Below are positions 1 through 61,437 of a DNA stretch of 64,000 bases, in pieces. The first letter of the stretch is position 1, and each line of letters opens with the position of its first letter. Source of the DNA: Polytrichum commune (lineage: Eukaryota; Streptophyta; Polytrichopsida; Polytrichales; Polytrichaceae); the NCBI GenBank assembly GCA_950295325.1, contig OX485804.1:1364001-1428000 (forward strand), read 5' to 3'. The translations under genes were made by a program, and so were the position numbers. A model generated the notes under the pieces. It had not been told where the DNA came from. It did no database searches and saw only the letters and a program-made list of their open reading frames with translations.

Positions 1-1
1 G

Positions 2-2114
2 GCGTTCATTGGTCACTTCTCAGGGTCAGATATCTACGGAAAGGGGACGTGGTGGAAGGATGTCAAAGGCGCTGACAACATTGTCAAGCGCTTAATCTGT
101 CGGTACGTTAGTTGGGACATCTTTTGTTCTCTTCATTTATTTCAATCCATTTGTTCTCTAAGTTGCTGATTGGCCTCACTCCTTGGTTGTCAAGGTACAT
201 CAAGCACGAGTTTTTCAAGAAGAAGGCTATCAAGAAGCTCCCTCCATTTCTTGACGCATGGTCAGATTCCTCTTCGCCCACATTCATATTTTCCCCGGCT
301 CAAAAGCGCAACTTCTCCCTCCCGCATCTCCGGGAGTGTTGCTAGTACGTGGAGTGTAAGAGGACGTGGCAACCGGATGAGGAGGCGGCGTTGAAGATTC
401 GACTCTCCGGTGGAGAGCCTCCACTGCCTCCTACTCAAAGCGATGAGGTTGTTCTCCTTGACAGTCAGCTTCCGGAGGCGGATGAGGTTGTTGCGACTCT
501 CGATGAGGCCAACACACAGAAGTCCAAGAGGAGGAAGCGTGCAACCCAAGACAAGTCATCACTGAAGAAACGTGCGAGGAAGCTCAAGACTGTGGAGGAT
601 GACCCCCCTGCTTCACCTTAAGCGACTGTTGCATCCCTGCAACTCTTAGTCAGGTATCTACTCTGTCGAGGCTGCCTCCACCGCCCGTTCTTTCATCTTC
701 CAGGCCTCCTCCGATTGTTTCAGAATGCATCTTGAATGCCTCCATTCTCCATCAGCGTCGTCATTTTCAGGTGGTTTCAGACTTCATCCTTTCTCTTCCA
801 CCCTCCCATACGCGGAGAGCTCTAGGCGTCAGGAGGTTAGATGTGAGCATGGCTGATCTTGTCATTGCTGACATCCCATAGAACCTGCCCGTGCCCAATG
901 TATCCGATCCGGCACATAGTGTTCCTTCCTGGAATGCACTAGATCCTGATTTCCTTGGTGAACTCTTCGATTTCGCGGACGAGATCATCCATGACGATGG
1001 AGCTCTCCTCCTCTTTCATCCAGTTGACAATGGTGCCTTCAAGGAGAGCATTCAAGACCACTTCCCTGCTTTTGGCTTCACCATCTTCAAGGAGTGGCTG
1101 GGAGTCAACCGTCTTTGCCTCCATTCAGCTAAGAATGTGGACAAGACCACCAACCTCTTCCAACTTGTACTACTTGTTCGTGCCACGAAAACAATCGGAT
1201 CCGACCTTGATAAGCGGCCCCGGCACTCGTCATTTTGCCTTCGCGATGCCAATGAGCTCAAGGCTCTTGGCATTGAGCTCGACATGGATGATGCCATTAT
1301 GAATTATACCACAACTCCTCTCATGGACGGCTCGAAAGCTTGGCGTGGTCCCCGTGAGAAAGATATTTCTTTCATGTCCTCATTGATCATGGCCACTACG
1401 GACATTGGGCACGTCGTGGTTGACGTTAATGCAGGCGTTGGTATGTCCTACTTCACTTGCCATCATATCCTGGTTTTCATTTTCTACGTTTGCTTTTATT
1501 TATCTTTGCTAACCTTTCCTTCGCAACAGGGACTTCTGTCCATGCATGCAGGCAGCTTGGGCGCCATATCATTGCTCTCGAGGAGGACGAGGACATCTTC
1601 AACCGTGTCCTTAAGCCACTTAAGAGTGTTAAGCCTCCGGTGAAGGCTCCATCCATTGTTGTTGCTTCCACGCAGGCTTCACAAGGCACGCAGAAGAGGC
1701 CGCCGGCCTTGAAGCGATCGAGACCAGAGTCCTCGCAATAAGTGAGTATGATGACCTTCTTTGCTTCTTTTCCTTGTCCACTCAGCTTTTACACTTTCCA
1801 TCCTCTTTCTTACAATTTTCATGCTTCTTTTCAGACTTGGCCTTGGAGCAGATGTGTTTGGTACTCCCACCATGGGATTCACTTTGCCAATCTATGCCCA
1901 TGATATGGCGATGGTGCTAGCGGCACAACCTTCTCCTACCAAAGCTAGTACCCCGTCTCCACGTTATGACCCCCGTGCCATAGACTTCTTCGAGCTTTTT
2001 GTAGAGGTGGATAATGAGTGCCATAGCTTAGATTCCACTTCAGATGAGGGCGGCCATGAGGGGAGTATCTTTGGAGATAGGGAATCTAGTAGTGACAACC
2101 TCATGTTTGATTGA
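2..2114 (+). pseudogene. Decayed N6/N4 DNA methyltransferase-like gene, copy 1 (5' part outside window)
   Basis: This is the C-terminal half of the family seen complete at 47766-54199. Exon pieces: 2-102 (protein includes GTWWKDVKGADNIVKR), intron 103-194, 195-621, about 655-1440, intron 1441-1529, 1530-1741 and 1835-2114. The intron at 103 has the same position and phase as in the other copy. The order is motif IV-like DLVIADIP, then DDGALLLF, then a C-terminal AdoMet loop VVVDVNAGVG TSVHACRQLGRH, the permuted beta-class order of bacterial N6/N4 methylases (family knowledge). Damage: TAG at 343-345 where the other copy has a Trp codon; TAG at 879-881 directly after ADIP, in the catalytic motif; TAA at 619-621 and 1739-1741. 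Unlike the other copy, an intron interrupts the AdoMet loop. It may be a pseudogene, or some stops may be spliced out. Family assignment is fairly sure, activity unlikely. Confidence 0.6.
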
Positions 2115-2468
2115 TTTTTGGTTTGATTGATTGGTATTTGGATTTATAAAGTGTGGTGTGGTTTTCAATATTCCAATTATCTCATTGAATGCATCTTTTC
2201 ATTGTTCTCAAATCACACTACACTTGGTGGTCGTCATACTCCAAAGAGAATTTAGTCCACCATCTTATCAACCATAGTGCATTTTCCCACGGTCATAGGG
2301 CCTCATTGGTAATTATAAGAAACTTTTTGGTTCTAGAAATTGGCCACTCCACAAATATAGGCCTTATAATTACAAAATTAAACTTGAAATATGTGCAAAA
2401 TCCACGGTCATAAGGGGCCTAACATTCGTTAAATGGAGTTTTAAATTATAATTTTCTGCTCACGAAAT

Positions 2469-2510
2469 CTGCTCATCGCTCACCGCTCACCGCTCACATC
2501 GTAGCATTCC
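2469..2510. repeat. Heptamer-rich terminal repeat of element copy 1
   Basis: The stretch reads as CTGCTCATCGCTCACCGCTC and further CGCTCAC units, then ATCGTAGCATTCC. It matches the right terminus of the complete element (59358-59439), where the same CGCTCAC/TGCTCAT heptamers precede AAGATAGCTTCCCTC. It marks the boundary of the first element; sequence to the right is unrelated. Confidence 0.6.
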
Positions 2511-4084
2511 TGTTGCCGATTGTTAAGTTGCGAATCTTCCCCCCTTCAGATCCGAATGTGTGGTGGTGTTGTCGCCTGCCGCAATGCAGCCACCTTCCTG
2601 TCTGGACTATAATGGTGCTCTCCCAAAACGCCCAGCTCATGATCCCTCCTCCCAGCTAGGAATCTCATGAAACTAAAAATGCGCAATCTGGGTGGCGTAT
2701 TCTCGCCTGGGCTCTCCCTAATGCCCTCCTCATTCTTGCCTTTTTCTTCTTACCCCTCGGCCGAATCTCCCATGGCAGCTCCCTGGCTGCCGCAACCAGC
2801 TTGAGGCGAGAGAGAAAAGGAGCGGAGGCTGAGAGCCTCCCTTGTCCGACTCCCTGGTCCGACTTTCCCTAGGGTGCTTGCCCCCACCTGCCCTTAAATG
2901 AACAATTATAGTGCTAAAAGCATCCTTCCCGGAACTCAGCCACCTTCCTAAGGCTAACAAGCCGTAATTAAAATCCTTAATAAAAATCTAATCTAATTCA
3001 CCCATAACTTACACACTAAAGTCCTAATCTTCTTAGTTTACTCCTAGTCTCCCTTAGGCTAGTGATGCTCACTTTGTATGTTTTCATATCTTGTCTGAGT
3101 TCGAATCGACATTTTAATGAGTTGTCCAGGTTAAGAACACATGTGGGCCCAAAATCGGGCTCACAATGCACAAGGGTAAGGCCGTGAGCTATGTGTAGCT
3201 CATGGCGTGGTAATTTTAGAACGCCCAAGATCACCTCAATCGGAGATTCGGAGGTGTGAGCTAAGTGTTATGGCAATTTGAGTGCAGTACAGCAGTGCCT
3301 GGGAGTGATTCCCGGGACTGCCAAGGTTTGAACAGGCATAACTTCCTTAATACTTGACCAAATGGGGCAAGTGAGGAGTTTATTGGCATCTACGTAAAGC
3401 GTAGATGAAGATGGAGTGGTTGGTTGTTAGCATCTGACATCATATAAGGAAGTTATGATGGTCTGAAGCTGCTGGGGGCTTCACGGCCCAGCGGCTAAGG
3501 GAAAGTGTCCACTTGGCCCCAACTCTTGGTAGAGAGACAAGAGGTTTCTTGACAGTGGGGTAGGGGCCCAGTGTAGATTCCTAGAGGCTTATATGGGTGT
3601 GGTGTGGCCTTACCCACCCGAGGCCGAACAGCACGGCCTCCATGGGCATTGGCCCAATGTGAGGCCATAGTTGCCTAGTATGGTTCGGGTTGTTGTAGTG
3701 TTGCTCCGGCAACGTGATGATCAACATAAGATTGGACTTCCATAGATGAAAGTCCACATCTAAGGATTGGCTACCGATTAAAGGGGTGAGTCCCGAAAGC
3801 AAAGTAGGAGGGTTGGTTCCCCTCCTATGAACTATAAGGTCCGGGGTGAGAGGAGCTAACCATTAGCATGGCAATATGCAAACGGTTAGCGACACGTAAC
3901 CTTTGCTAGAATTGCAAATTGGCAAGATTGTTAAGGGGGCTAGCAAGGGTTGCGACACTTGAGCACATTTATTTGCACTCTCGTCCTCACTTCCTCGTCT
4001 TTTCCCATAATGCATCGTCTTCATTTTTTATGCAAAATTCATTATTGGATCATAGCATTAAACTAGTCGAATTGTTAATCACAG
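2511..4084. other. Intergenic or upstream region of the FCP1-like gene; no gene recognised
   Basis: No coding frame here is convincing on either strand. Base composition is more GC-rich than most of the window. A short hairpin lies near 3290-3325 (GCAGTGCCTGGGA pairing with TCCCGGGACTGC). The stretch may contain 5' exons or an intron of the gene whose first visible exon starts at 4085: the acceptor there (AATCACAG) needs an upstream donor, but I could not place one. The 3216-3560 part resembles degenerate retrotransposon-type sequence; this is an impression only. Confidence 0.35.
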
Positions 4085-4852
4085 GACCCTCCAGAGATAG
4101 GTCGCAACCCCTCGACCAGTGGACCTCAGACCCGAAACAAACCGTTCATCGTGTTTGACCTCAACGGGGTGTTGTGTCACACCCAACACATCCCCAAGGT
4201 CCCCACGTGTCCCTTCCGTCACCCCGACGAAAGGGACAATGATGGCGAGCTCGACACCCTCATTAACCGCAAGGTTGTCCACGCCCGTCCCGGCTTGCGG
4301 GACTTCCTTCGCAAGGTGCTCGACCTAACTCACGTTATTGTGTGGAGCTCTATGGTCATGGAGAACACGGAGCCCATCGTCGACTACCTCTTCTGTGATC
4401 TCCCGAGCCCTTGCCTCGTCCTCGGCCAAGAGGAATGCGATGAATTGCTCGACGAAAAAGGTCTGCCGGTTCCAAAGTTTGGCGGTCGAGGCGGAGGACA
4501 ACAGTTCCTCAAGGTCCTCATGTCCAAACTGTGGCGAGGCATCCCCCGGCTGCAGGGGGTACCCCACGGGTGGTGGCCAACTCCTGAGAACACCATCCTC
4601 ATCAACGACAGCCCCACCAAGAGCGTCTTGAACCCCCAGAGCAATGTCATCTTCCTCGACACTTGGACCGGCGATAGGAACGACACATTTTTTGTCAATA
4701 CGCTAGCGCCTTACCTTAGAAGGTTTATGCTCCACGCTGGTAGCATCCCCTTTTTGGTTAGGTCCAACCCCATCGGCAATGTGGGGCTAAGCCCCCGCGA
4801 TAATGTATTTAAGAGCATCATGAGGCTCGCGAAATTCAGTAAATTGATTTGA
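4085..4852 (+). CDS. FCP1/NLI-interacting-factor-like HAD phosphatase domain exon
   Basis: An open frame of about 255 codons follows a 3' splice acceptor (AATCACAG at 4077-4084). The protein starts DPPEIGRNP, then has the HAD motif I region KPFIVFDLNGVLCHT, a conserved RPGLRDFLRKV helix, motif II VIVWSSMVMEN, and the late motif ILINDSPTKSVLNPQSNVI followed by FLDTWTGDRND. This is the layout of the FCP1/SCP/TIM50 fold (family knowledge), whose members dephosphorylate Ser/Thr, typically of the RNA polymerase II tail. The canonical DxDx(T/V) is DLNGV here, so the second Asp (general acid) is Asn. The frame ends at TGA 4850-4852, but a donor at 4805 (AAT|GTATTT, phase 0) could join the in-phase exon at 4965. 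No initiator exon was found. It may be a real gene, a retained fragment or a multi-copy transposon-borne gene. Confidence 0.6.
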   Translation, partial: DPPEIGRNPSTSGPQTRNKPFIVFDLNGVLCHTQHIPKVPTCPFRHPDERDNDGELDTLINRKVVHARPGLRDFLRKVLDLTHVIVWSSMVMENTEPIVDYLFCDLPSPCLVLGQEECDELLDEKGLPVPKFGGRGGGQQFLKVLMSKLWRGIPRLQGVPHGWWPTPENTILINDSPTKSVLNPQSNVIFLDTWTGDRNDTFFVNTLAPYLRRFMLHAGSIPFLVRSNPIGNVGLSPRDNVFKSIMRLAKFSKLI

Positions 4853-23314: not shown

Positions 23315-23924
23315 GTAGTTTTCATTAAAACGAGAGTATGTTAAGCTCGGAAATCGACTGATTTAGGTTGAGTTGACCTAAATGAGGACAATATTTTTTC
23401 AATTTAAGTTGAGTCGACCTAAATGAGGACATTATGTTGTCAATTTAGGTTGAGTCGACCTAAATGAGGACAATATTTTATCAATTTAGGTTGAGTCGAC
23501 CTAAATGAGGACAATATTTTTTCAATTTAAGTTTAGTCGACCTAAATGAGGACATTATGTTGTCAATTTAGGTTGAGTCGACCTAAATGAGGACAATATT
23601 TTGTCAAGTTAGGTTGAGTCGACCTAAATGAGGACATTATGTTGTCAATTTAGGTTGAGTCGACCTAAATGAGGACAATATTTTGTCAAGTTAGGTTGAG
23701 TCGACCTAAATGAGGACATTATGTTGTCAATTTAGGTTGAGTTGACCTAAATGAGGACAATTATGTTAGTCAATTTAGGTTGAGTCGACCTAAATGAGGA
23801 CAATATGTTAGTCAATTTAGGTTGAGTCGACCTAAATGAGGACAATATGTTGTCAATTTAGGTTGAGTCGACCTAAATGAGTCGATTTCCCAGCTTAACA
23901 TACTCTCATTTTAATGGAAACTAC
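23315..23924. mobile_element. Foldback element with 45-bp terminal inverted repeats enclosing a palindromic satellite
   Basis: 23315-23359 and 23880-23924 are inverted repeats that differ at only 3 of 45 positions; the shared core includes GAGAGTATGTTAAGCT and GGGAAATCGACT (left copy CGGAAATCGACT). Everything between them is a 42-bp tandem array, so the element is essentially TIR-satellite-TIR. I see no convincing target duplication and no coding capacity. High TIR identity suggests recent activity or gene conversion. Confidence 0.75.
23361..23879. repeat. 42-bp palindromic tandem array, 13 units
   Basis: Each unit contains an imperfect palindrome, TTTAGGTTGAGTCGACCTAA plus A, followed by TGAGGACA and a short AT-rich spacer. 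Spacers alternate between ATTATGTTGTC and CAATATTTTGTC; units 6-9 form two identical 84-bp dimers, a simple higher-order structure. The last unit is cut at the right TIR. Two late units are 1-2 bp longer. Confidence 0.9.
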
Positions 23925-44100: not shown

Positions 44101-47100
44101 CCCCAAACCAACTATCAGAACCTAATGAACTCTATACATCAAAATGCCATAAAATATCTTAAACAACTATTCAAATAATTTTGAACTTTTTGGTCAATTC
44201 TGGACTAAATTACCATCATATGTGTGCTTTAATATCTCCACTATAATATCAAATGTCGGCACACATGTATCATGCCCATAGTCCTTTAGTATACAATCAC
44301 CTACAAAATGGTTGAATAGCGGGTCAAATAACAACACTTGAAGCATGTGTGTTCACATTTCCAAAAATTGCTTTCTTATTTCTTAATATTAAACAAAGAA
44401 AACTAAACAATTGGTAGGCTTTGGTGACACACCACCGTAGAACCCCCATCACTATAATAGCCCACCCTTTGAAAGGATGGAATTATCCCTTACTTTGCAT
44501 CATGGTTAATCATGATAAACTTAAGGGCAATGGGCTCACATTCACGTAGAACCCTAAAGACCGACATTTTGAGTTTTTTTTCATTTCTTTTCTTGGCTTA
44601 TTATTATGCATTTATGACCATATAGTTGTGTGTTTGCACTATGTTATCATTTGGTATCACATAATGTGTGCATTATTCCAAACTATCTAGGAGACTGGAA
44701 TTACCTTAATACCAATTCCAGTTAAGTAAGTGCAAACCCTTGTCTTAAGCTAAGAGAGTGGAGAGACTTGGAGGGAAGCTAGCATACAAGTAGTGAATAG
44801 TAACACGTGAACAATGAGGATTAACATGAGATGTAAGTTTTCATTTTTTAATTATATTCCATAACAATCAAACGGTTTGGCTATAAATGAAACACAAGGG
44901 ACCATTTTGACATTTGAAAACTAAACACTATGTAATCAACATAATACTTGCATATCTAGAAATAAGTCTTAATATACTAAGATAGCTTGAATGTTAGTAA
45001 ATGAAACTCAAAATAGCTAAAATTACCTACATATATTGAAATTTCATAAATTTATATATCAATACACGGGGCGGGGGGGGATTTAAGAATACACATGTGA
45101 GAACCCTTTATTTAATTTGGGGGGGGGGCATTCACCTTCCTTCGTTGAACATTTTCCACCCTATAAGCACTTAAATTTCTATTGGATGGTATTTTTTAAC
45201 ACCCTATCATACTATATAAATTTTAGAGGCGCATAATCATAATCACCCTATCTTATTTATAATTAATAGAAATTCCATGTGAATAATCTACACATACATT
45301 AGGCATACAAGACACTAGGCATACATTACACTACAAGATATTACTCTGCACATTACACACATATAACCATCACACTATAAACTTTAGCATATTGTGTATG
45401 GTTCTTGAACCCCCAGGAAACCCTAAATAAGCCAACTAACCCTTTTATCACTGGAAGACAATATTTTTCATCCAAAGGCGACCGTTTCAACAAATCCATC
45501 CACATGTCCACATACATTTTGCCTATTACTCAAATAATGTCACTAATGGCATATGATTTATGTTGAACCTATAAATAAAAATCTAGACTTAATTTCATTT
45601 ATGCTACTTCACATCAAAAAAATAATTTAAATACCATAATTTAAACCACACCGTCCATTATATATAATTCCAAATTCGCACTTAGAGGATCCTATTGTGT
45701 ATCTAAGAAAAATATAAAAATTATGTGTCTTGAATGAAATCCACCCTACATTTTCTCGCACATGTTTTCCTACATTTTTGCCAGTGCTCTAGTATCAACA
45801 ATGTACTAGCATCACGTCTTGATTATATATTATTGGCTATTAATGATTGACAATAATTGAAACCCTATATCATTTGGGTATGATGCGCATGACCTTGTTG
45901 TAGTTCAAAATTACAGTTGCGTACATGAAGGTATTCACCATCATGTAGTCCACCTTGCATATAGATACATGAATACATGATACACATGTGTTTGTAATGT
46001 AACTTATTGGAATTTCTCCTCCATCCTGGAATACGTTGTAAGTGTTCTACTCTCCATTTGTTCCTATCCTTTGCAATATGTGCATTTGGATTGTGCCAAG
46101 TTTTGGAGTTGGAGACCAACATCTTTTAGATTAAATATCTCATCCCAATGTTTGCTTACAAATTGAATACCTCATCCCTAGTTCACTTTCACTTTCAAAT
46201 TTGAGAAAAGGTTAAAAGATTAATTCATCTATGTAATGTAGCTCATGAGAATTTGACCATGCAACATGCGTCATTGAAGCTAGGGAAATGATAGAATCTA
46301 GATTTGCAAACAAATAATCATTTAAGTCATAAGGTAGGCACAAATACTATCGAATTTTTATTTTTTATTTAAAAAAACTTTAGGGATTGTGATTTGCACA
46401 TTCACCTCTACTTTAGGATTCACCTCTACTTTAGCCATGATCTCTATAGACAACAACAAACTATAGTAAATAGTAACTCCCCTTTACATATTTTATGTAC
46501 ATTAATGTCATCTATAAATTTGGGTGCATTAAAATCAAGATCATGCACGTTATACTCCCTTGACACATATGTATACCACAACACATACTCATTGTCCTCT
46601 TAAGAACCTACCAACATAATGTGACCAATTTATTGTTTGTAACAAAAAGGCTACAATCTCATTTGTTTGAAAGATTGTGGAAGCTTTCGTATATGGCCAC
46701 ACTAGAATATAACCACCACCATAGAGCAACATGGTATCACATTTCAACACCCTCCATTGCATTGTGTACATCTAATCCCCTTACAAGGTTTTTGTGTTGG
46801 AACTGGAGCAAGAATTGTATGTATTTTTGGATGATCTTGTTGATGTTAGCAAACACCTTAAAAAATATTTACATTCAAGATTACCTATGAGAACAATGTA
46901 AACATTAGAATTGTAAAATTTACATGTTGCGATTCACTTCACATGGGCATTGTCCAACATGAATATCTAAAATTTCACATAGAGTACACCATTCTTAGTC
47001 ATTCTATCAAAGTGGATATTCCAAATCATAGTTGCGTTGCAACATCTTTGAATTGCGTATCACAACAATCAACCATTAAAATCGTATTTTATTTGCTATT

Positions 47101-47613
47101 GCACCCATGGCATGAGATTATGGTTTATCCTCAGATTTTGGCCATTGTCACATCTTGCCCAAACTTCAAGGAAATACCAGTCATTAAAGACCATGATACA
47201 AGCGATCCATCATTCCCGTACCCATTGGAATGAAATGATTGAACTGCTAAACATGTCCAAGGTCAACATCAAAATTTATGCATGAACATAGTTTTGTTTT
47301 GTAGGTGGCCATAAAGGAAAGCTTCCACATAATACTTGTCATTGTGCAAGCAATCATTATCAAGAAACTTAGCAAAGATGAGATATATGTATGTCTTACC
47401 TTCAAATATCCTAATAACAAGAAATATCAACCACATTTGGGAATATTGTGTAGCGCTCAAATCTTGGTCTTTAGAAACTAATTTAGGGAGCTAGAATAAT
47501 TATGGTAGATCAATAAGGGAAAAAATGCATAATCACGGGTGGAAGGGTTATAATGTTGCCCATATAAGAGGGAGTATATTGATAGATACATTATTTAAGT
47601 AGTGTAATGATAT
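41101..47613. other. Long gene-poor AT-rich stretch
   Basis: No gene is supported across 6.5 kb. Many short frames occur on both strands, but none has recognisable motifs, splice structure or GC contrast. TG/TA/GA microsatellites occur at about 41740-41780, and G homopolymers near 45068 and 45119. The reverse-strand frame 45865-46122 contains AKDRNKWR, which faintly recalls LINE proteins but is too short to use. Confidence 0.4.
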
Positions 47614-47623
47614 GGTTAAATTA
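47614..47623. repeat. Left target-site duplication of the 11.8-kb element
   Basis: GGTTAAATTA directly precedes the element's first base; an identical 10-mer directly follows its last base at 59440-59449. Length fits the 9-11 bp duplications of Mutator-like elements. Confidence 0.85.
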
Positions 47624-47692
47624 GGGGAGTGCTATCTTATGAGCGGTGAGCAATGAGCGGTGAGCGATGAGCGGTAACTTATGAGCAGTGAG
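47624..47692. repeat. Left terminal inverted repeat
   Basis: After GGGGAGTGCTATCTTAT come tandem heptamers GAGCGGT, GAGCAAT, GAGCGGT, GAGCGAT, GAGCGGT, then AACTTAT and GAGCAGT. The array probably offers multiple transposase contacts. Confidence 0.85.
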
Positions 47693-50600
47693 GAAGATGA
47701 AAATTTTGGTAATAGGGCCACCAATATCCTATAACCGTGGAATTGTGGCCTTAAAAATGATGATTTTAGGGTTTTGTAATAAGAGGGTTGAGAAGGATAA
47801 ACAACATGAAGTCCAAAAATTTATTCATCAGTAGTAGCACTAGACATGAAACTATCTTTGCCTCGTCATCTATATATATTCGAGCACCTTTGCATTGCGA
47901 ATTGATTTTGGAACTATAACAAGATTCTTCATTTGGATCCGAATCTTCGAGATTCAACATTGCAATTGCAACATTCTCGGCATATGATGGGAGACGCGGG
48001 CTACGGCTTGGACTTCGTAGGAATTGTCTATGTGCCCAAAACGGGAGACATGTCCTCTTTCCAATCGTATTCCTGAAATCAAATCGATGAAACATGTAAA
48101 TAATGTGAAGAAATAAAAATGAACCAATGAATTGAATGAAACGAATGAATTGAATAAAAATTTATTGTATCAAAACTTACTCACACTCAAATTCAAGCAT
48201 CTCCTCATCCGAGAGGTCATCATCTTCTTTTGTGAGATCTTGTATATTCTCCTTAGATGACCCCTCTTTCAAAACCTTTTCCAAAAGCGGTTTCAATATG
48301 TGCTCAAACATGTCATTATCACCCTCAAATGCAAGAAGATGTCTGCCACATGCGCGTGTTGCTAGGATAGAAGTTCCAGTGGAACATGTCAAATTAACAA
48401 CGCGTCCATTTGATGGTGTAAACAATTCAATAAGATCTTGAAAAAAAACGCGGCGATTTTTGATATGGCCCCCTCCAAGGTCTTCCCGATTTTTTAAGAA
48501 GCGTGTTTTTTTCATCCACAAAATTGAAAAGCAAGTTTTTGCTTTTCAATCCAGTGCCGAAAAAAGTGGAGTTTGGTTGTCTCGTAGATTTTGTGGTAGT
48601 AAAATCCCTTACCAAGACATGAGCCATAAATGCCGGAGTCTACAAAAAAATGTAAATTGTGTTAAAACTATATACAATGCAAATAACACCAAAATAATTA
48701 AATAGAAACAATTGTGATGTGTTATACTTACGGTGTAGGTTGGAGACTCCGGATCCTTGAACACCATGTACGAATTGAGGCAAATAAAAGTCCTAAGAAC
48801 TTTCATGTTGCCGTTGTGTAAGGTTGAATTCAAAACCTTCTTGGTTTGCATATCGATAGCAGAAAATACTACGAGAACGCCATCATCAGACAAGATGGAC
48901 TTGCACAAGGACATTGTTGCAACCATCCAGTTCTTGTCATATTTATTTCAAAGAGAAATTTCAGCAGGTCTATTGGAGAGGTTGAAGTCAAAACCGTCCG
49001 GAAATTGCAGAAAAACCAAGTCAACGGCAAATGGAGTCGGACTTCCCATGACATGAAATTCGCGATTGTCTTTGACCTAAAATACCACAACATATCACAA
49101 TATAAGACACAAAATAAAATCCAAATGAAAGTAAGAACATTACAGAAAATACAAAATGAAGATTACTTACATTTTCAAGAAATGCCCGTCATTGGATCCA
49201 CTCAGGAGGGCCTACTTCAACCCCTTCAGACTTGTTCTTGACAGCAGTAGATCGAGCAAACGAGAGCGTGAGAAAGTTCTTCAGTATGAATAACTCTTTT
49301 CTCAAAACATTCGTTGGCGCACGATGAATAGCGTCATAGGTGCTGGAATAATGAAATTCCAATACATCGCACCCGGATTTTGAACTTTCGCCTCCAAGTG
49401 TATTCTTATCCAAATCATTGGAAAGAACAAGCAATTCTTCATGTTGTGAAATTTCCGATTCACCTTGTATTTTGGTTTCAGGAACATGTTTTCTCTTACG
49501 ACGTTTTGTCTCTTTTGGTTCTGGCTCTCTAAGTTTAAGCTGCACAATTTGTGCTTGCAAAATTGCAGTATCACGAGGATCTACATTTTTGGCATCATTT
49601 ATCTGACGGATTGTCTTCTCACTTGACGGACATGCATCCTTAGGACAATCAAGATACCAACCACAATTCTCATAGTGTGGGAGCGACCAATCCAAACAAA
49701 TCTCAGTAGTGAACATGCATGAGTCTTCCGCACCAGTGTCACGCCAATTTGGAAAAAAACGAGGTTCTCCTATAACGTATTTGTGCGGAATCAAAACATA
49801 TCGAAAATACCTACACACAAAAATATTATGAGCCAAATATTGAATGAAAAGTAAAATGTAATGAAAAAATATCAAGAAATAGTAAAGAATAAGTTGTACC
49901 TGTATAAAACACGCTTCATAGCAAGATCAATATTCGGTTGCTCATCCCAAACGTTGTGTTTTTTTACTTTTCCACTTTTGAATTCACGATAGAATATTGA
50001 ATTGAAAGCCGCAAACTTCCAGGTTTGGATATATTCGGAGAGACTAGGCACATCTGCAGACAATTGAAGAGGAGATGAAAGAATACTTTGAAGTTCTTCA
50101 ATAACTTTTTTCTCTAACTGTGCCCAATATGTAGCCTTTGATAACCAATCATCAAGTGCAGAATCAGAGAGGGGTGATTTTGGGAAATGCAATGCATCTT
50201 TGTCAAATCTATTGCCATTCCAAAGCTTGAGCCATCCGACTTTGACATCTGGATCCACATTACTAACAGCAACACGATGAAGTTTCTCTTGTAACATTTC
50301 AGGCACCGAAAATGAACCCCAATGGTGCTTAACTTCTTCAAGAAAAGCAGGGGTGAGGTTGATGTCAGCAATTGCTAGTTGTTTTGTAAAACTAGAAGAC
50401 AACATTGCACGTTTTTTGTTGACAGCTGCGGACATTGCTTTAGAAACTCCTTCTGAAGTTCGTTCAAGAGGATGGGTTTCATTGTAAAGGTTGAGAGCAA
50501 TATCGCTAGCCTCGGCAAGTTCTTGCTGAAAAATCAAACAAAATCCAAAATTAATAAGTACATATAGATGTGATGTAAATGAAAGATAAATAAACATTAA

Positions 50601-51810
50601 AAACATAGTAGGAAATGCTAGAAAAACTTACACTGTACATATAATCAAGATAAATTGGCCGCGTCAAAGAATACCAAGTTTCAACGGACTTCTCCTCACA
50701 TCGCTTATAACTTCTAGGATCCAGTTGTTTTTTAAAAGAAGTCAAAGGCATGGTGCCGATACAAAGTATGCACCAAATTGGTAGAAACGTGAGAATTTTC
50801 TGTTGACCTGAAAAAATATTGAATTCATGGATTTAGGATGATATAATTCAAATAACAGAATACAAACCAGAAATAAATAAAAATAAAGAAGTAAGAACAT
50901 TACTTGTTGATGTCGTGCATAGCAGTCAACAAACTTGGAATGTCATCAAGCTCGGGCGCCAAAATGATGGAATCCACAAAGACATGACGCTCGTAATCGT
51001 CGGTATGCAAGCGGTCAATATATCTTTTCTAAGCAAAAAATCTGTGATTACCATCCCATATGAAGGATCGGCATCTAATTCAGTTTCAAACACCGCATTA
51101 GCTTGAGCCCAGTTTGGGCTCCAAGATGCACGAACCTCGTCATCCACAAATTGAAAATTTCCCTTAGAGTCGGTAGCCGATAGATAAAACACACGGTCAC
51201 CATCACGATAACCATTGAAAAAGTCAGCCTCCAATTTAGTGATGTCGCCTTTCAAAGCAGGACGCACAATAGGCATCGGAACCATGCGACATAAGGGTAC
51301 ACGCAAACGAGATTTCGGTCAAGCACGGATTGAGGAAATTGTTGAAGTGGAATTAACCTTTCGCTTGTCCGTAAGCTCCCAGACTTTCTGTTGATAGGTT
51401 TTATTGTCACCATCATTATCTTCATCCGAGTCAAAATCATCGAGATATTCATTTATTTTTTTCTTTTTCTTATTATGAAGATTTGACGATATTTCCTGAT
51501 GAACATGAACTTGTTGAGATGGACGATCTTGAGTTGAATGCATTGTAGAATCATCACCAGTAGAAATAACAGTCGTTCTCTCCAAATCCATTGATTGGTC
51601 CTAAAACAAATGAAATAAGTTTCATAAATATTTCAAAACCAGTAGAAACACATTAGCAATAACATTACAAAAACAACAGCAATAGCAACAACAATAACAA
51701 CAGAATACCACGAACACAGGGAAGAATAACAAAATTTAATCTAGACACTACCATTTGCACCTTTAAATATTGTACGATTAGGGTGGCCGCTCACCCCAAA
51801 ACTACAAGGG

Positions 51811-51840
51811 CAGACCCTGTGCGTTAACGCACAGGGTCTG
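51811..51840. repeat. Perfect 30-bp palindrome
   Basis: CAGACCCTGTGCGTT is followed by its exact reverse complement AACGCACAGGGTCTG. It is a solitary copy of the core used in the 64-bp array. Confidence 0.95.
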
Positions 51841-51877
51841 TGTGTCCAACTACAGGTCTACAAAAGTTGGGCGCGAG

Positions 51878-52197
51878 GTTTGGGTCGAACGACCCAAACT
51901 GTCCACGCGGTTTCGATCGAGCGACCCAAACCGCCTACAGCCAATTTAGGTCGAACGACCCAAACCATGCTCACAGTTTGGGTCGGTCGACCCAAACTAG
52001 GCGGACAGTTTGGGTCGAGCGATCCAAACTACACGGACAGTTTGGGTCGAGCGATCCAAACTACACGGACAGTTTGGGTCGACCGACCTAAACTAGGGTG
52101 ACAGCTTGGGTCGGTTGACCCAAACTAGGCGGACAGTTTGGGTCGCTCGACCCAAACGAGGCGGACAGTTTGGGTCGACCGACCCAAACTGCCCGCA
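51878..52197. repeat. 32-bp palindromic array, ten units
   Basis: Each unit is GTTTGGGTCG, two variable bases, CGACCCAAAC, then a 10-bp spacer (often TAGGCGGACA or TACACGGACA). Units start at 51878, 51910 and every 32 bp after. The two central bases vary (AA, AG, GG, CC, CT and others) while the arms are largely kept, which suggests selection or homogenisation of a dyad binding site. Units 5 and 6 are identical. Confidence 0.95.
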
Positions 52198-52410
52198 ATT
52201 TACGCCTGATTATGCGCAATTACCTTGTCATCACGAAAGTGCAAACAAACCTTGTACTGCACCTGTAGATGAGAGAGCTTGCAGCGACGAGCTCCGGTCC
52301 GATAGATGAGAGAAAAAAGACTGAATGCTTTGAAGGTGTGGCAATTTATACTACTCGTCCCTGCGGCCATATTTAGCGTGGCTCTTCGTGGCCCCGCTTA
52401 GCCGCTAGAT

Positions 52411-52530
52411 AGTTGCCAGCGCAGACCCTGTGCGTTAACGCACAGGGTCTACTTGCCCAACTTTGTGAAGCCTCTAGCTAGGCAAGTAGACCCTGTGCGT
52501 CAACGCACAGGGTCTGCGCTAGCAACTTTG
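52411..52530. repeat. Foldback with nested palindromes
   Basis: AGTTGCCAGCGCAGACCCTG and on to CTACTTGCC (52411-52457) is inverted at about 52482-52528 (AGTTGCTAGCGCAGACCCTG on the reverse strand), separated by about 25 bp. Each arm itself contains the GTGCGTTAACGCAC palindrome (GTGCGTCAACGCAC in the second). Two more diverged copies follow at about 52535-52580. Confidence 0.85.
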
Positions 52531-53039
52531 AGGCCACTGTGCGTTAGCGCATAAGGCCTGTGCGTTAATCGCACAGGGCCGAGACATGAATTTGCTAAAA
52601 AGTTTTTTTTTTTAATTTGAAGAAAAGTTTCTGGAATTGGTAGATTTGCCAAAACTTATAAAATCTGGAAAAAATGCTAATGGGGTCCAAAAATATATAT
52701 ATATATATATATGCTATATTATCTAAATCTCCGTAGCTACAAAATCTTCTTATATTTTGTTTTGGTTTGAAATCATTTTCTTTTCTCATTCTTCTATCTA
52801 TTTCCTTGTTTTGGGCCACCTCGTAGATTTTGGGTTTCGGGGCAAAAAAAAAATTTTGCTATTTTGTGTCATTTTCTAGCTCCTATAACGTATTGCATAA
52901 ATACTTGAGTAGACATATTTCTCATTTCTTGCATTCTAACCCCGTTTTGAATGGTTTTTTTGTTCCTACGCTCTGAAAATCGATTTAAATTCATACAATA
53001 GATATTTGTTTACTTTTAGGCTCTCCTAGTCGTTTTACC

Positions 53040-53880
53040 TCCTAACTTTTGGCCTTCCTAAGTTGCTCTTACAAACCCTGTGCGTTAACGCACAGGGTTT
53101 CTCCTCCCAACTTTTTGCCTCTTAAGTTGCTCTTGCAAACCCTGTGCGTTAACGCACATGGTTTTTCCTCCCAACTTTTTGCCTCCTAAGTTGCTCTTGC
53201 AAACACTGTGCGTTAACGCACATGGTTTTTCCTCCCAACTTTTTGCCTCCTAAGTTGCTCTTGCAAACCCTGTGCGTTAACGAACAGGGTTTCTCCTCCC
53301 AACTTTTTGCCTCCTAAGTTGCTCTTGCAAACCCTGTGCGTTAACGCACATGATTTTTCCTCCCAATTTTTTGCCTCCTAAGTTGCTCTTGCAAACCCTG
53401 TGCGTTAACGCACATGGTTTCTCCTCCCAACTTTTTGCCTCCTAAGTTGCTCTTGCAAACCCTGTGCGTTAACGCACATGGTTTTTCCTCCCAACTTTTT
53501 GCCTCCTAAGTTGTTCTTACAAATCCTGTGCGTTAACGCACAGGGTTTCTCCTCCCAACTTTTGGCCTTCCTAAGTTGCTATTACAAATCCTGTGCGTTA
53601 ACGCACAGGGTTTTAGCTCCCAACTTTTGGCCTCCATAAGTTGCTCTTATAAACCTTGTACGTTAACGTATAGGGTTTTACCTCCAAACTTCTCGCCTCC
53701 TAAGTTGCTCTTATAAATCCTGAACGTTCTCCTCCTGACTTCTAGCCTTCCTAAATTTCTGTTATATACCATGTGCATTAACGTATAGGTTTTTTACTCT
53801 CCAATTTATAACCTCTATAAATTGCTACTACATGATATGTGAGTGAACGTACAAGGTTCTCCGTCCTAACTTACAACTTA
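53040..53880. repeat. 64-bp palindromic array, about ten clear plus three decayed units
   Basis: Each unit contains AAACCCTGTGCGTT joined to AACGCACAGGGTTT, followed by CTCCTCCCAACTTTTTGCCT and CCTAAGTTGCTCTTGC. The central GTTAAC starts at 53084, 53148, 53212, 53276, 53340, 53404, 53468 and 53532 (exactly 64 bp apart), then 53597 and 53662 (65 bp). Several units have GCACATGG instead of GCACAGGG in the right arm. The right-hand units decay, so the array was probably expanded from its centre or left side. Confidence 0.95.
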
Positions 53881-54199
53881 TGCACTATCAAATTATGTGA
53901 ACGTTGAACTGACTTACCTTTTTGTTTGTCGTCTTCTTTGAACCCGTCTTCAATTCGGACTCTGATATACGATCATCTATATCTTCTTTGTTCTTTGCAC
54001 CTTCATCATCCTCCATCGCATCAAAATCCAGTGTCTTCACAGTTTCTTCTACCGTACTCAGCAAGTTTCTTTTCCCTTCCTTATTTGCATTCTTCTTTCC
54101 CACACTCAGTCTAAACCTCTTTTTCTCGGAAGTGAAATACAAAGCTTTCCTACATCTTCTCTTCGGCCTCACGGGTGTTCTCTCTACATCGTCCACCAT

Positions 54200-54721
54200 C
54201 GTTGGTGTCTATGATATGTTTTCTATCAAGTACTATCATTTATTCTTCCAATGTATCTATCTCACAAAATCCGGCGTATATTACGATCACATGTTGTAAT
54301 TGGCGCTCAATGAGCGAGATATTTCGACGCGTTTGTTATTATGTGTTTATTTTTGTTATATCCGCCAAAATTTTCTAACACCTACTTTGTTCTATTCATA
54401 ATGAGCAATAATTTATTTTTCCAACCAATTTTAGTTCTTTCGACATCTACGTCAGTCCACACATATATATTTTTGTTTTCTACCAATACTTTTAGTATTT
54501 GACGCCATTTTGTGTATATCTTGCTCGTAAATATTCTCTGACTATTATTGTGTTATGTCCACTTCTGTATTATTAGATGCTATATATCACACGCTTTCAT
54601 CTCCATCCATTATTGTATCACACGTTTTCATTTCCATTCATTTCTTCACACAACTCTATACAAAACCAACATTCACCCCATATTTTTGTGATGTGTTGTT
54701 CATATGTTCTTTTGATTTTCT
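54200..54721. promoter_or_regulatory. Shared divergent promoter region of the two element genes
   Basis: The two genes start back to back about 520 bp apart. The stretch is AT-rich and contains a duplicated TATCACACGYTTTCATYTCC motif (about 54585-54640). No single TATA box stands out. Divergent layout would let one regulatory region control both genes. Confidence 0.45.
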
Positions 54722-56877
54722 ATGACTACCATTAGAGCTCATGGATCTTTTGTTCTCTTCATCTTGCCACTCCAAGATGATGGTCATGTGAGTGTTTCAG
54801 AGGATTTAGTTAGTTTGAGATTCAACCTCCAGATAGGAACCATGTATTTAGAGCATGAGATGTACTCTGCAGATGGAGAGGTGTATGAAACGATTTTGGT
54901 TCCAAAAAATAGAACTGATGTTGGTTTTATGTGGATCTTAGGACCTGGTTCATTTAGGGTGATAGGACTTTCTGAGTCTCAGATGCAAGCTTGAACTGTC
55001 ATTTTGACAAACGAATCCGGTACATCCACAGTTCAAATTCCCTCTATCGCACCTGTTAAGGTGGAACCCCTTGATGATAGTGTGTTTGTGCTATCAGATT
55101 CAGAAGATGACATTTGTGCATCTGTTGATCTTTCAAACATATCGTCATTTCCATTTAGAAGTGTGCATTCTACTCCTTCCCAACTTCCTATACATGTAGC
55201 CAAATGCCCTTGCGGTCTTATGTACAAGAAGGTGGTTCCCCAAATCTCACCTTCTCAACGTCCTCCACTACACCCTTTATCTTCATCTACAGGGTTGACT
55301 ATGGTTGATGCCTTGAAGCTGACAAAGTCAAAAAAAGATCAAAGTCCGATCTTGCATCCATTGATTTTGACAGTATAGATGTTCGTGAAGTCAAGTACTT
55401 ACCATCTTCTTTTAATGGTGATGTTTTGTTTCTCTTGCCTCCTGTGGCACTCAAAGCTCCAAGTACGTATGGTTGCTCAATGGACGGCATGGACAAGATG
55501 TGCGACGGTCATCCTTGGTGCACCACCAAAACCACGAATATCCAAAATGACTTTGGACTGTCCTTCCGGCGCTCTACTTGTGCTGGTCATCTCCAATGTC
55601 ATAATGACTACTGTGATTACATGAATCACAATGGGGGCCTCCGGAACAACACTGAATGGGCCGGTTCAACTCCTATCCCATTTGCTGTGGGTGTTGTTCC
55701 CCCTACTAAGTCCACTGTCGAGTGTAAGGTATGTCGGTCCACACCTGTGTGCATTGCTTTGTGTAATACTCGAATCATATACATCCACTCCACATCCGTT
55801 GGAATGTCCAGGGCTTGCATTCATCTTGGTGTACATGATCACCCTGTGGCCAATGGCACATGCCGTGAATCATTGGACATGGCATACCAATGCGTTGCAA
55901 ATGAAGTATTGAAAACACCCACAGCAAAAAATTTAGCCATAGTTATGGCGGCGAGCAAACAATTCTTGGCCGATTACCTTCTCAAATCTCCCGCAAATGT
56001 CGAAGGCCATCACTTGGTTGGTTCATCCCTAGAGGTCGTCATGGACAAATTCAGCACTCTTGCGTCTCCAAATTGTCGTAACTTTGTATCTGGATCAAAG
56101 CGTTTTTTGCGTAGTGGAATGGAAACTATGGATAGTATTATGACGCTCAAAGACCACTCTGCTTTCAAATTCGTCCATGGTAGTCGGTTCCCAGGGCAGT
56201 CAAAGGACAAAGTGTTTGTTTTCAAGACGTCTGTAGACCTTCCAGGAAGTGGTGTGGAGCTTGTGAAGAGGATGCAAGTCGGTGGGGATATGGAGAATTC
56301 ATGGATTATGTTTGACCATGTCAAACGTTTGAAGGACTGGACGACCATGGCTTGCCATGTGTACGACAGTCGATATTGTAAAGTGTTAACTATTGCGTGT
56401 TGTGACATGCAATCTGAAGATGGTGCAGCACAAATTCTCTTTTGGGAAAATTTGAATGTTGTCATGGCAGAAAATGGTGTACCATACGTAAACTTCAAAG
56501 GGTTTATGGCTGATAGTGCTCAAGCTAATTGGAATGCGGTGAGGGCGATTTACGGGGATGGTGATCCAAGTCTACCCATGGTTGCACGTGAGCGTACATG
56601 TCTTTTCCATTGGTCCGCAAGCTTGGATAAGGTGACCCAAAAGTATATCAAACCATCCTTGCAATTTCAACACAAACAAATATGCAAGGATTACAAAGAC
56701 GCGAAAACAATGGACGACGCTGAGACCAAGTACCATGTGATTCGTTCTTGGTAGTTGTCATCTGGAGCTGCCTCCGAAGAAGGCATCCTTGGCCTTTCAG
56801 AGTGGTTGGGATTTTGGCACTTTCGTTACAGACAATGGAGTGGCCATATGCTACTTGTAAGTACATATCAAACTTCA

Positions 56878-57253
56878 TTACTCAATGTAATATATCTTAT
56901 GTTTTCTTATCTTTGTCTTTCTGTATTGTTCATAGGATATGACAATAGACGAGCGTACGGGAATGCCAACATGCAACCTTGCAGAGACTGTACACAACAA
57001 ACAACAAATAGTTTGGGTCGTTCGACCCAAACCTTGTATGCAGTTTGGGTCGAACGACCCAAACGTGGCAGGCAGTTTGGGTCGTTCGACCCAAACGTGG
57101 CAGCCATTTTGGGTTGAACGACCCAAACCTAAATATATAATCTATCTTATGTTTGTCTTATCCTTGTATTTGTGTGTTGTTCATAGGATATGACAATAGA
57201 AGAGCGTGCGGAAATGCCAACATGCAACCTTGCAGAGACTGTACACAACAAAT
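56878..57253 (+). repeat. 251-bp duplication of an intron end and exon start, with an array between the copies
   Basis: The intron 3' end and first 22 codons of exon 2 occur twice: the GATATGACAATAG start is at 56936 and at 57187. Both have TTGTTCATAG acceptors and encode MPTCNLAETVHNK, the candidate catalytic-Glu segment. After the first copy the sequence runs into the four palindromic units at 57011-57128. The second copy continues into the open exon. Confidence 0.85.
57011..57128. repeat. 32-bp palindromic array, four units, in the transposase gene
   Basis: Units start at 57011, 57043, 57075 and 57107, with the same GTTTGGGTCG...CGACCCAAAC arms and the same 32-bp period as the intron array 5 kb away, but with different spacers (CTTGTATGCA, GTGGCAGGCA). 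With the upstream acceptor used it would be translated; otherwise it lies in the intron. Confidence 0.95.
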
Positions 57254-58495
57254 GGCTCCAACAGTCCGGCAACAAGATGACTTGTTTATATGAAGCTACA
57301 GTGGACGACATGATCCGTGCCTTCATGCAAATTGCAAATTACCGGACATGGTTGAAAGGGGGGTCTGATGGTAAAGGTCCTGATTCGGCATCCTTGAAAC
57401 TCAAAGCGGCTGTAAGGTGTGGAGATCCAAAAATGTTGACCGATGCCATGAAGTCTTATCCAGGGGCAGAAGACGTCAACACTAGAGATTGTGCATTGGA
57501 AGGGTCAGAGCTCTTTGGTTCCACCAAACGCAAACTCAACCTACCACCGGGTGCTGATTGTGACTCTCATCGACCCGACAAAGTGAACTATTCCATTCCC
57601 CGTCCGAACACCCAAGCAACTCGTCAACGCATAGAGGAATCGTTAAGTTCTGCAATTCATGGTGTGGCTCATACTACATCCGTGTTAGAGACTGATTGTC
57701 TTGCTTCCAACTGGCACATTGCAAGATTACCACCCAACTCAGCCAAACGATGTTGGGCACTGCAGGCCATCACAGGGACTATGTGCAATGCCAAAGTCGG
57801 GACTGGGAAACATGGCACACCTGCTCCAACATACAAAGGGCTCAGGAAGGAATTTCGCTCTCCCAACAATGTGGAGTATGAATTTTGGTTTTGCCCTGAC
57901 GACATCAAACGTTGTGTGAGTGGCAGTAAGAAGAAATATGTGTTGGACTGGCCTATAGTACCTAACACGTGGCCGGTGAAGATAGGTACCAATCTATCGC
58001 GAGAGGAGGTTTTGGCACTTGAAGATGCTGGATTTCAACTACAGCAGAGGGAGGCATTGTCCCCTCGTCGTAGGCTTTCAACAATCGCAACTCTCCCCAT
58101 CCCTCGCTCGCATTTTTCTATGCCACCAAACCCGGACGCCCACCCTACATTCAGGTTTGGGAAGACAGTGCGTCGTAATCCAACAGCACCGCTAGCGGAT
58201 CACAAAAACAAATGGGAGAGCGCCGGACTCATGGAGGGTTACTTTGTGGTTGGGGTCACTGCCATTCCATATCCGGGCTTTGGAGTGATAATCAACATTG
58301 TCTCCAAGCAGGATATCACCTATCATGTCACAATTGGCGACATCCCGCATTGCACATGCCCGGATTTCACGAAAATGTCCTCTCATGCATTGGGAAAGAA
58401 AGGAAAATGGGTATATTGTAAACATCTTTATTATGTGTTTAGATTTTTGTGCAAGGTGGATTACGAGAGTGACAAGTTCATTCATGCACCTACAT

Positions 58496-58700
58496 ATACC
58501 TATAACGAGGTCATGCGACTACTTGAACTTGCTGGTATCGTAGAGTGTGAGTAGTATTGCAAATGGTCTATTAAGTACCATATATTTGAATGTCAAAATA
58601 TGACATGTTTTGGTTTGGATTTTTATAATAAAAATCAGCAATGGGCTGGAAGTATTTCAAATGATTCAGTACGACCCAACCGTGAGCGGTTTGATTGATT
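58496..58700 (+). repeat. 3' end of the transposase gene, duplicated downstream
   Basis: The last codons and 3' flank (from GCACCTACATATACCTATAA through TTTTGGTTTGGAT and AATAAAAATCAGCAATG) recur at 59041-59227. The copy still encodes YNEVMHLLELAGVVECE and a stop. Confidence 0.85.
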
Positions 58701-58739
58701 GACATGGATAAATAATAACAAGTTTCTAAAAATAAAAAA

Positions 58740-58935
58740 TAATTGAGAAGATTCTACGTACATCCGCGTAGTAACGTCTTCTTGGTATCCGCCTATAGAT
58801 TATTCCTACTTTATCACTAGCTCAATTTGGGATAGCACCAGTCAATATAACCAACCGGATTCGAACCCGGGTTGATACAGACCTAATACCAATCTCTTAC
58901 ACAACTCGCATCCACAGGCGGATGTCTCAAAACCT
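58740..58935 (-). mobile_element. Possible tRNA-derived SINE
   Basis: On the reverse strand GGGTTCGAATCCGG (B-box GGTTCGAATCC at 58868-58858) lies about 40 bp after GATGCGAGTTGTGTAAGAG, a loose A-box. The strand ends towards an A/T-rich tail (58718-58745). It lies between the two copies of the transposase 3' end. No clear target duplication, and tRNA pairing is incomplete, so it is not a tRNA gene. Confidence 0.4.
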
Positions 58936-59040
58936 AGTAGTTACCTACATATTGACTATTTCTAATATCTAATTTCCTTTCATTTGTAGATTCTGGGCCT
59001 TAATTCAACCCGTGAGCAGTTTGAGTGGCTCACAATTATG

Positions 59041-59227
59041 GCACCTACATGTACGTATAATGAGGTTATGCACCTACTTGAACTTGCTGGTGTTGTGGAA
59101 TGTGAGTAGTTGTGCAAGTGTTGGTTGTAACTACATGTATAAGGATGTCAATAAATGACATGTATTGGTTTGGATTATTATAATAAAAATCAACAATGAA
59201 TTGAAAGTGTTTTAAATGATCCATGGA
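59041..59227 (+). repeat. Second copy of the transposase 3' end
   Basis: Duplicate of 58496-58700 about 545 bp downstream. It is preceded by CGTGAGCAGTTTGAGTGG, similar to the CGTGAGCGGTTTGATTG that follows copy 1, which implies a tandem duplication later split by the SINE-like insert. Confidence 0.8.
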
Positions 59228-59357
59228 AATAGGGCCCTTTCACTTGTGCTTCATTTAAAATATTGGCAATTTACAATTGAAAATATGCAATTAATTTGTC
59301 AAAATTTTGGTTGTGTACCCTAAACCCGTGTGTCTTTACTAAGTTTGGAATCATTGC

Positions 59358-59439
59358 TCATATGTTACTGCTCATTGCTCATGTGTTACTGCTCACCGCT
59401 CACCGCTCACTGCTCATCGCTCATAAGATAGCTTCCCTC
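59358..59439. repeat. Right terminal inverted repeat
   Basis: Read outward: TGCTCAT, TGCTCAT, TGCTCAC, CGCTCAC, CGCTCAC, TGCTCAT, CGCTCATAAGATAGCTTCCC, TC. These are the reverse-complement heptamers of the left end. Confidence 0.85.
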
Positions 59440-59449
59440 GGTTAAATTA
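59440..59449. repeat. Right target-site duplication
   Basis: GGTTAAATTA, identical to 47614-47623. Confidence 0.85.
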
Positions 59450-61299: not shown

Positions 61300-61437
61300 A
61301 AACAAAGATGTCATTATTTATGCCAAAATACCACGGTTATGGGATACTAGTGGGTATATCTCCAAATATTTTGCCTCTCTCATCACTCACAAGTTACCAC
61401 TCATCACAAACTGCTCACATGCATGATAGCACTCCCC
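61300..61437. repeat. Relic terminus of a third large-element copy
   Basis: CCACGGTTATGGGATACTAG, then TATCTCCAAATATTTTGCC, ACTCACAAGTTACCACTCAT and finally GATAGCACTCCCC match the reverse complement of 47624-47760 (CCACGGTTATAGGATATTGG, CCTATTACCAAAATTTTCAT, ATAAGTTACCGCTCAT, GATAGCACTCCCC). Only this methyltransferase-side end is present; no partner terminus or coding remnant is visible nearby. Confidence 0.65.

Follow-up and report, generated by a model that had tools for sequence, protein, structure and literature searches.

The 64,000-nucleotide window analysed here, C2:1364001-1428000 of the 408 Mb, 64-contig Polytrichum commune genome, contains a Mutator-like element (MULE) at 47624-59439. 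In this element a transposase gene (54716..58554, plus strand) and a partner gene (47824..51591, minus strand) diverge from a region that holds arrays of palindromes. C-numbers below denote genome contigs, L-numbers genomic loci, and fam1 the family, or cassette type, of the window element. What is new is the contrast between a conserved transposase half and an exchanged partner-and-palindrome half, in which palindrome type follows partner type.

Structure of the Element

The perfect 10 bp target-site duplication (TSD) claimed in an earlier sequence-only reading of this stretch is borne out: identical copies of GGTTAAATTA flank the element at 47614..47623 and 59440..59449. A second copy (L039/L040) has a separate perfect 10 bp TSD, ATCCTACAAG. 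Both copies examined at both ends therefore carry duplications within the 8-11 bp typical of MULEs. The heptamer-rich inverted ends described in the same reading are also present. The left terminal inverted repeat (47624..47692, plus strand) consists of GGGGAGTGCTATC and GAGCGGT-type heptamers, and its counterpart occupies 59371..59439 on the minus strand. Within them, the heptamer-rich arms at 47631-47692 and 59371-59432 (62 nt each) are 89% complementary, giving the element the terminal inverted repeats of a MULE. The GGGGAGTGCTATC end has 337 matches on both strands of the 408 Mb genome, against 2 for the reversed control.

Two other features lie close to the element. A further GGGGAGTGCTATC end with diverged heptamers (61425-61437, minus strand) is located 2 kb to its right; no opposite end was identified for it. 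Directly to the left, minus-strand fragments at 46668-46850 and 47023-47124 (E 3e-9 and 0.086) are about 40% identical to the transposase and represent an old transposase relic.

The window copy is disabled in both genes by in-frame stops and frameshifts, and less damaged copies exist elsewhere in the genome. Its transposase carries a TGA at 54992-54994, a frameshift near 55336, and a TAG at 56752-56754. In intact copies, this gene comprises two long open frames around an intron, with a SWIM-like zinc finger near the 3' end. Of the DDE/SWIM assignment made earlier, the SWIM-like part can be seen by eye as C-x-C...C-x-H, with PF04434 below its cut-off (E 0.076). The Pfam MULE profile (PF10551), run at E up to 10, matched none of six subfamily members. 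On inspection by eye, all six members have D365 and H433, and D401 and C430 are each kept in five.

A genome search with the transposase core gave 89 scored copies out of 2344 first-look candidates, and all copy counts below refer to these 89. No stop interrupts the matched region in 51 of them. Among 28 loci (of 30 copies taken, two of differing length were left out), the mean synonymous divergence (dS) is 0.036 and the ratio of mean nonsynonymous (dN) to mean synonymous divergence is 0.40. These values indicate that the family has been mobile recently and kept under constraint. Between subfamilies the transposase half is likewise conserved, with 80-91% amino acid identity and dS down to 0.08.

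The Partner Gene and Its Methylase-Like Domain

The partner gene starts at an ATG near 51591 and ends near 47824. Its first exon (50903..51591, minus strand) encodes a conserved N-terminal domain with DGNHRxxAW and HDIN motifs, while exons 5-6 (48177..49062, minus strand) encode a domain resembling beta-class amino-methyltransferases with motif order IV (QFPDG)-V-I. The window copy is broken by stops at 51319-51321, 49189-49191, and 48948-48950 and by frameshifts near 51060 and 48442-48545. The divergent gene had been described as having eight exons; its divergence stands, but the intact copy at L039 was modelled by eye with seven, open throughout and encoding 1076 amino acids. The search for better copies suggested along with that description thus recovered an intact partner, besides the 51 transposase matches free of stops. 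The partner gene and both arrays are present in all three copies read across the whole partner side (L039, L041, and L042), of which L041 and L042 have interrupted partner genes.

The methylase-like order of motifs at the C-terminus is supported by profiles, although Pfam scores stay below the curated cut-off. The last 200 residues match beta-class amino-methyltransferases. Pfam N6_N4_Mtase aligns with the fam1 partner over profile positions 30-218 of 221 (E 0.013) and with that of L048 at the motif I end only (E 4.9e-5). A search of the PDB with the single fam1 methylase-like region gave no match, and the multi-family profile alone succeeded. It retrieved DpnA (5hfj, whole-sequence E 6e-4, match at the motif I end), CcrM (6pbd, E 0.0015, whole domain), and RsrI (0.024). 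Of its 17 matches at E up to 10, five fell below 0.05, and all five are beta-class amino-methyltransferases. The C-terminal domain therefore does match a methyltransferase fold, by profile only; a search of NCBIfam gave no useful match.

Since the profile matches extend across the complete domain with CcrM and, in fam1, with Pfam, the partner could be an active 6mA/4mC methyltransferase acting on the palindromes of its own element to mark or protect them. Motif I, the SAM-binding motif, is largely retained, keeping its D and one G (e.g., DLTCSTGAS and DFSVGTGAS). Motif IV argues against such an enzyme. In active enzymes it reads DPPY; here it reads DIPEG (L044), DLPEG (L046), DIPDG (L047/L048), DYPDG (L049), and QFPDG (fam1). 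The catalytic form (D/N/S)PP(Y/F/W) is thus absent from all five cassette types in which the motif is readable; it cannot be read in L045 and is interrupted by a stop in a second family (fam2), described below. The aromatic residue is lost throughout, and fam1 lacks the leading acidic residue as well. Methylation by the partner is unlikely because motif IV lacks DPPY/F/W, and a marking or protecting enzyme, as proposed earlier, is quite improbable. Most likely, the methylase fold serves as a DNA- or cofactor-binding module and not as an enzyme. The evidence favours the remaining part of the earlier proposal, that the partner recognises the element's own DNA, which it would do by binding.

The N-terminal exon is conserved between cassettes, and its DGNHRxxAW-bearing domain has no accepted profile match. 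A ParB/sulfiredoxin identity, and hence parS-like palindromes, had been read by eye from this motif and was rejected, as neither the Pfam and PDB searches nor the genome-wide ParB_N search supported it. There was no ParB among the Pfam matches of six partner members, and the PHROG ParB-like match reached only E 0.14. A genome search with PF02195 produced four first-look candidates, on the small contigs C10, C12, and C23 only and none at partner loci. This identity is a lead only. The matches on C10, C12, and C23 exceed the ParB_N cut-off and lie in long open frames; these contigs are probably bacterial contamination. A viral origin was also discarded, as alignment A1 against viral_contigs found no relative.

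Palindromic Arrays

Palindromic satellites, the third feature noted earlier, occupy three places in the element. Array A (51878..52190) has a 32 bp unit with the palindrome TTTGGGTCG-NN-CGACCCAAA, and array B (53032..53712) a 64 bp unit with CCCTGTGCGTTAACGCACAGGG; isolated B copies occur near 51817, 52428, 52493, and 52537. A second array-A block (57010..57130) lies inside the transposase intron, between duplicated intron/exon borders of about 100 bp (56902-57001 and 57153-57252), and is present in L040 too. It has no exact match in the transposase loci of six other subfamilies, and the array-A pattern with up to four mismatches matches once each in L053 and L054. The ratio of observed to expected CpG is 1.17 in array A, 0.66 in array B, 0.77 in the whole element, and 0.40 in the flank.

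Every cassette type read has a palindrome of its own, L045 excepted. Besides the two fam1 palindromes, these are AATAAGGGTGGCCGTTAACGGCCACCCTTATT in L049, AATAGGGGTTTCGGTACCGAAACCCCTATT in L046, GGGTATTGGCGG-NN-CCGCCAATACCC in L044, TTTGTGCG-N4-CGCACAAA in L047/L048, and ATTTACGAACG-NN-CGTTCGTAAAT in fam2. All seven main palindromes have a CG-N2-CG or CG-N4-CG centre (shuffle product 1.2e-7 in a post hoc test). In five cassette types (fam1, L044, L046, L047/L048, and L049) the arrays occupy the space between the two divergent genes. The palindrome can also stay constant while its repeat changes: L060 combines a fam1 partner (78-88% amino acid identity) and the fam1 palindrome with a 53 bp unit instead of 64. 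In L056, a partner exon with 72% identity to its L049 counterpart accompanies an identical palindrome.

Elsewhere in the window, a 41 bp tandem array at 23361-23881 contains an imperfect palindrome, ATTTAGGTTGAGTCGACCTAAAT, which resembles array A with one CG decayed; tblastn with known partners found none near it.

Palindrome Type Follows Partner Type

Palindrome type is tied to partner type. When no mismatch is allowed, 16 of the 18 partner-side loci tested contain only the palindrome of their own cassette, and two (L045 and a short fam2 end) contain none. Among the 16, three (L058, L059, and L061) were typed by palindrome alone, and types with a single locus fall on the diagonal by construction. 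With up to four mismatches, shuffled palindromes give 0.135 matches per locus and pattern. Genome-wide, the L049 palindrome is found at 49 places in 21 clusters, 18 of them no more than 6 kb from an exon of the L049-type partner and none near the fam1 type. The fam1 B palindrome is found at 444 places (control 0). The first 50 places listed, all on C1, fall into 11 clusters; a fam1-type partner is near 10 of these and the L049 type near none. For the L048-type palindrome, the 20 matches listed form eight clusters, five of which lie, by eye, upstream of a listed transposase.

Physical linkage alone would produce this pairing if the palindromes were selfish satellites that travel with the partner through their shared cassette and have no bearing on the protein. 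Such satellites would not be expected to keep the palindrome while the surrounding unit changes, as in L060, to share a CG-N(2/4)-CG centre across seven main palindromes, to place an array-A copy in the transposase half, or, in five cassette types, to sit between the divergent genes. We regard this explanation as improbable, much as we do the working methyltransferase.

Co-occurrence of Transposase and Partner

The two genes co-occur well beyond the window, with the same partner type in 65 of the 89 copies and another type in 13. In the 65, a fam1-type partner exon lies 2-7 kb upstream of the transposase, always on the opposite strand. The L049-type partner is found near eight further copies, and both types together occur in none of the 65. 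Five more copies (L044-L048), read directly, have other partner types. L058, L059, and L061 contain the L048-type palindrome, and no partner exon was found within their 3.5 kb slices. The same palindrome adjoins the transposase copy at C6:9373857. Of the seven copies left, three have, by eye, a listed fam1-type exon 15-41 kb upstream. Among six transposase relatives (83-89% identity) read for 8 kb upstream, all six have a homologous divergent partner. The proposal of an independent system with a prokaryote-type amino-methyltransferase partner stands as regards this co-occurrence and the profile match, but not as regards a role in methylation.

Partner genes are more numerous than the cassettes studied here. 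A search with the first exon of L046 gave 1347 first-look candidates and 150 scored matches. By eye, well over half of the latter are 51-57% identical to the query, many with uninterrupted frames of 192 or 193 codons, which indicates that large young partner families exist beyond those studied. Nineteen of the L049-type exons listed, with 79-87% identity, have a TGA in common as well as a 159-codon frame, and some are found no more than about 1.3 kb from a terminal repeat, as in a shortened non-autonomous derivative. At C5:32575091 and C5:17579664, frames open for 1820 and 1823 codons include a partner middle domain that shares about 60% identity with the L049 one, and may be intron-free or fused forms of the partner. 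L047 and L048 have additional open frames between the palindromes and the first partner exon, reading GRGSYGMVWK ... HCDLSFTNILFHF, which by eye resemble a protein kinase.

Two Modules of Different Age

The two modules differ in age. Partner exons of different types share 26-45% identity, and their synonymous sites are either saturated or give a dS above 1.6. These figures compare first exons among fam1, L046, L047/L048, and fam2 and middle exons among fam1, L044, L048, and L049; outside this comparison, the first exon of L045 shares 58% identity with the L046 one. The transposases, by contrast, lie at a dS from fam1 of 0.19 (L049), 0.48 (L048), 0.54 (L047), 0.65 (L046), 1.2 (L045), and 1.5 (L044). 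The contrast extends to copies with the fam1 cassette itself: between L039 and L042, dS is 0.04 for the transposase but 0.54 for the first partner exon.

The partner-and-palindrome half is largely unalignable between types at the DNA level. Between L049 and fam1, about 150 bp align at the left end and similarity returns weakly no more than 0.8 kb upstream of the transposase; strong similarity (91-96%) starts only at the transposase and continues onward. In L046, L047, and L048 the first partner exon adds one match of 58-60% to fam1, and L044 and L045 show no partner-side DNA alignment with it. This arrangement bears on a further role for the partner, in transposition itself. As suggested for mudrB, it could aid in synapsis, the choice of target, or integration, and the palindromes would then be internal sites for its binding; PMC6446971 describes MULE accessory genes of this kind. 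The left end, the expected site of such action, is alignable between the fam1 and L049 cassettes and the palindromes are not, and cassette-specific sites are ill-suited to a common transposase. This role is the least probable of those weighed here.

In a tree of 22 transposases, that of the fam1-cassette copy at C2:39333020 is sister (0.96) to three from L049 cassettes, with a dS of 0.077 to L062, and stands apart from the other fam1-cassette transposases. Transposases of the two cassettes differ by a dS of 0.077-0.186, and their partner exons are saturated at synonymous sites. Because C2:39333020 groups with L049-cassette transposases and similarity starts at the transposase, the left module appears to have been exchanged at least once. 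A low dS in the transposase and a high one in the partner would also result if no modules were swapped and gene conversion homogenised the transposase among old, stable lineages. The divergence is graded (transposase dS 0.08 to 1.6), however, the tree is resolved, and one fam1-cassette transposase groups with L049-cassette ones. Homogenisation is rather unlikely; as conversion and exchange are both recombination, it would alter the route more than the outcome.

The start of the window (1-2510) and L043:7600-10000 hold the end of a second, distant relative, fam2. Its first partner exon is 40% identical to that of fam1, its methylase-like domain lies at 855-1621, and it has a heptamer-rich end near 2470-2510 with its own palindrome upstream. 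No fam1-like transposase was found near it in the 10 kb read. Further along, a GC-rich stretch contains an open frame (4079-4852) that by eye resembles an FCP1/NIF-type phosphatase.

Comparison with Known Systems

The closest parallel is the VANDAL/VANC system of Arabidopsis. That system (PMC5735166; PMC10398659) likewise sets a fast-diverging, transposon-encoded partner family beside a much more conserved Mutator-type transposase, with family-specific short motifs as tandem repeats in non-coding DNA (intergenic, introns, and upstream). By position, partner-specific repeats in non-coding regions are found here too, with L045 as the exception. The analogy, drawn already in the sequence-only reading, is strengthened because partner type and palindrome type go together. 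The differences are equally clear. VANC carries DUF1985/DUF287, and neither was found in the fam1 partner with Pfam at E up to 10. For VANC21, the motif is YAGTATTAY, repeated in one orientation, whereas this element has long palindromes with a common CG core. Unlike in VANDAL, partner and palindromes appear to be swapped together, as a cassette joined to a closely related transposase. Anti-silencing is described for VANDAL; for this element it is suggested by analogy. The element would work like a VANDAL yet does not qualify as one, because it lacks DUF1985/DUF287.

Binding to the same palindromes could serve a different end. Acting as an autoregulator at the divergent promoter, the partner could repress or balance both genes in the manner of a phage or plasmid repressor and so control copy number. 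The arrays are placed between the divergent genes in the five cassette types named above, fam1 has one in the transposase intron too, and palindromes fit a dimeric repressor. Simple autoregulation needs neither large arrays nor fast turnover of specificity, and VANC, the nearest parallel described, employs such repeats for anti-silencing. Repression or copy control through identical binding is the main rival, though an unlikely one.

N4-cytosine methylation occurs in Marchantia. Like the beta-class N6/N4 DNA methyltransferases DpnA, CcrM, and RsrI, the partner has motif order IV-V-I and a profile match, over the whole domain for CcrM; unlike them, it has a degenerate motif IV, introns, a long N-terminal half, and a eukaryotic transposon setting. 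Fungal DNA transposons with TET/JBP dioxygenases (PMC12730594) also encode their own DNA-modification-type protein, of a different family. The bdelloid rotifer N4-methylcytosine system (PMC8885841) similarly involves bacterial-type amino-methylation machinery in a eukaryote; there it is reported as an epigenetic mark, whereas here the catalytic motif is degenerate and the gene lies inside a transposon. No MULE with a methyltransferase-fold partner was found among the best matches listed in a literature search, judged by titles and the starts of abstracts, whose coverage excluded most subscription journals.

A Model of Address Cassettes

These comparisons lead to a model in which the element is built from two modules: a right module of conserved transposase and right end, and a left module that would be an exchangeable cassette, made up of the divergent partner gene and, for most of the cassettes read, a palindromic satellite of its own in the promoter region that the two genes share. 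The partner, probably in dimeric form, would bind its own palindromes; a conserved surface would recognise the CG-N(2/4)-CG core, and variable surfaces the outer half-sites. It would therefore act only on copies with the same address. By coating the control region of its own family only, it could counter host silencing there or otherwise control those promoters, so that a change of cassette would be a move to a new, private address.

Several observations weigh against this model. No DNA-binding domain was identified in the partner by profile. L045 has a partner and no recognisable palindrome, only a tandem repeat of about 360 bp, while 3 of the 21 L049 and 1 of the 11 fam1 palindrome clusters have no listed partner nearby. 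The GCACCGAGGGTGC repeat in L043 and the satellite at 23361-23881 are without a CG centre. The fam1 B and L048 palindromes have TGTGCG-N4-CGCACA in common, and the L048 pattern with up to four mismatches also matches fam1 arrays. Finally, the pairing is observed within one physical cassette, and part of it could reflect linkage.

On balance, the comparisons of sequence make it probable that the partner is a sequence-specific binder that addresses its own element family, VANC-like in its working, with exchangeable cassettes. By analogy, its likely benefit is local anti-silencing, and the whole looks like an independently evolved "address label" system resembling that of Arabidopsis. More tentatively, this may be a eukaryotic transposon superfamily that evolves by exchanging "address cassettes" on a common transposase, each combining a non-catalytic partner derived from a prokaryotic-type amino-methyltransferase with a private palindromic satellite, and a second, independently evolved anti-silencing system with sequence specificity.

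To our knowledge, VANC is the main plant case that bears on how transposons evade silencing while sparing their host. If the model is true, specificity would be changed modularly, at one stroke, in a genome with over a thousand first-look, mostly unscored partner-gene candidates. It would also suggest that eukaryotes have put a bacterial-type DNA-methylase fold to use as a sequence-specific binder. The several cassette types, each a protein with its candidate binding site, on related transposases constitute a natural experiment, and specificity, co-evolution, and escape could therefore be tested with matched versus mismatched pairs.

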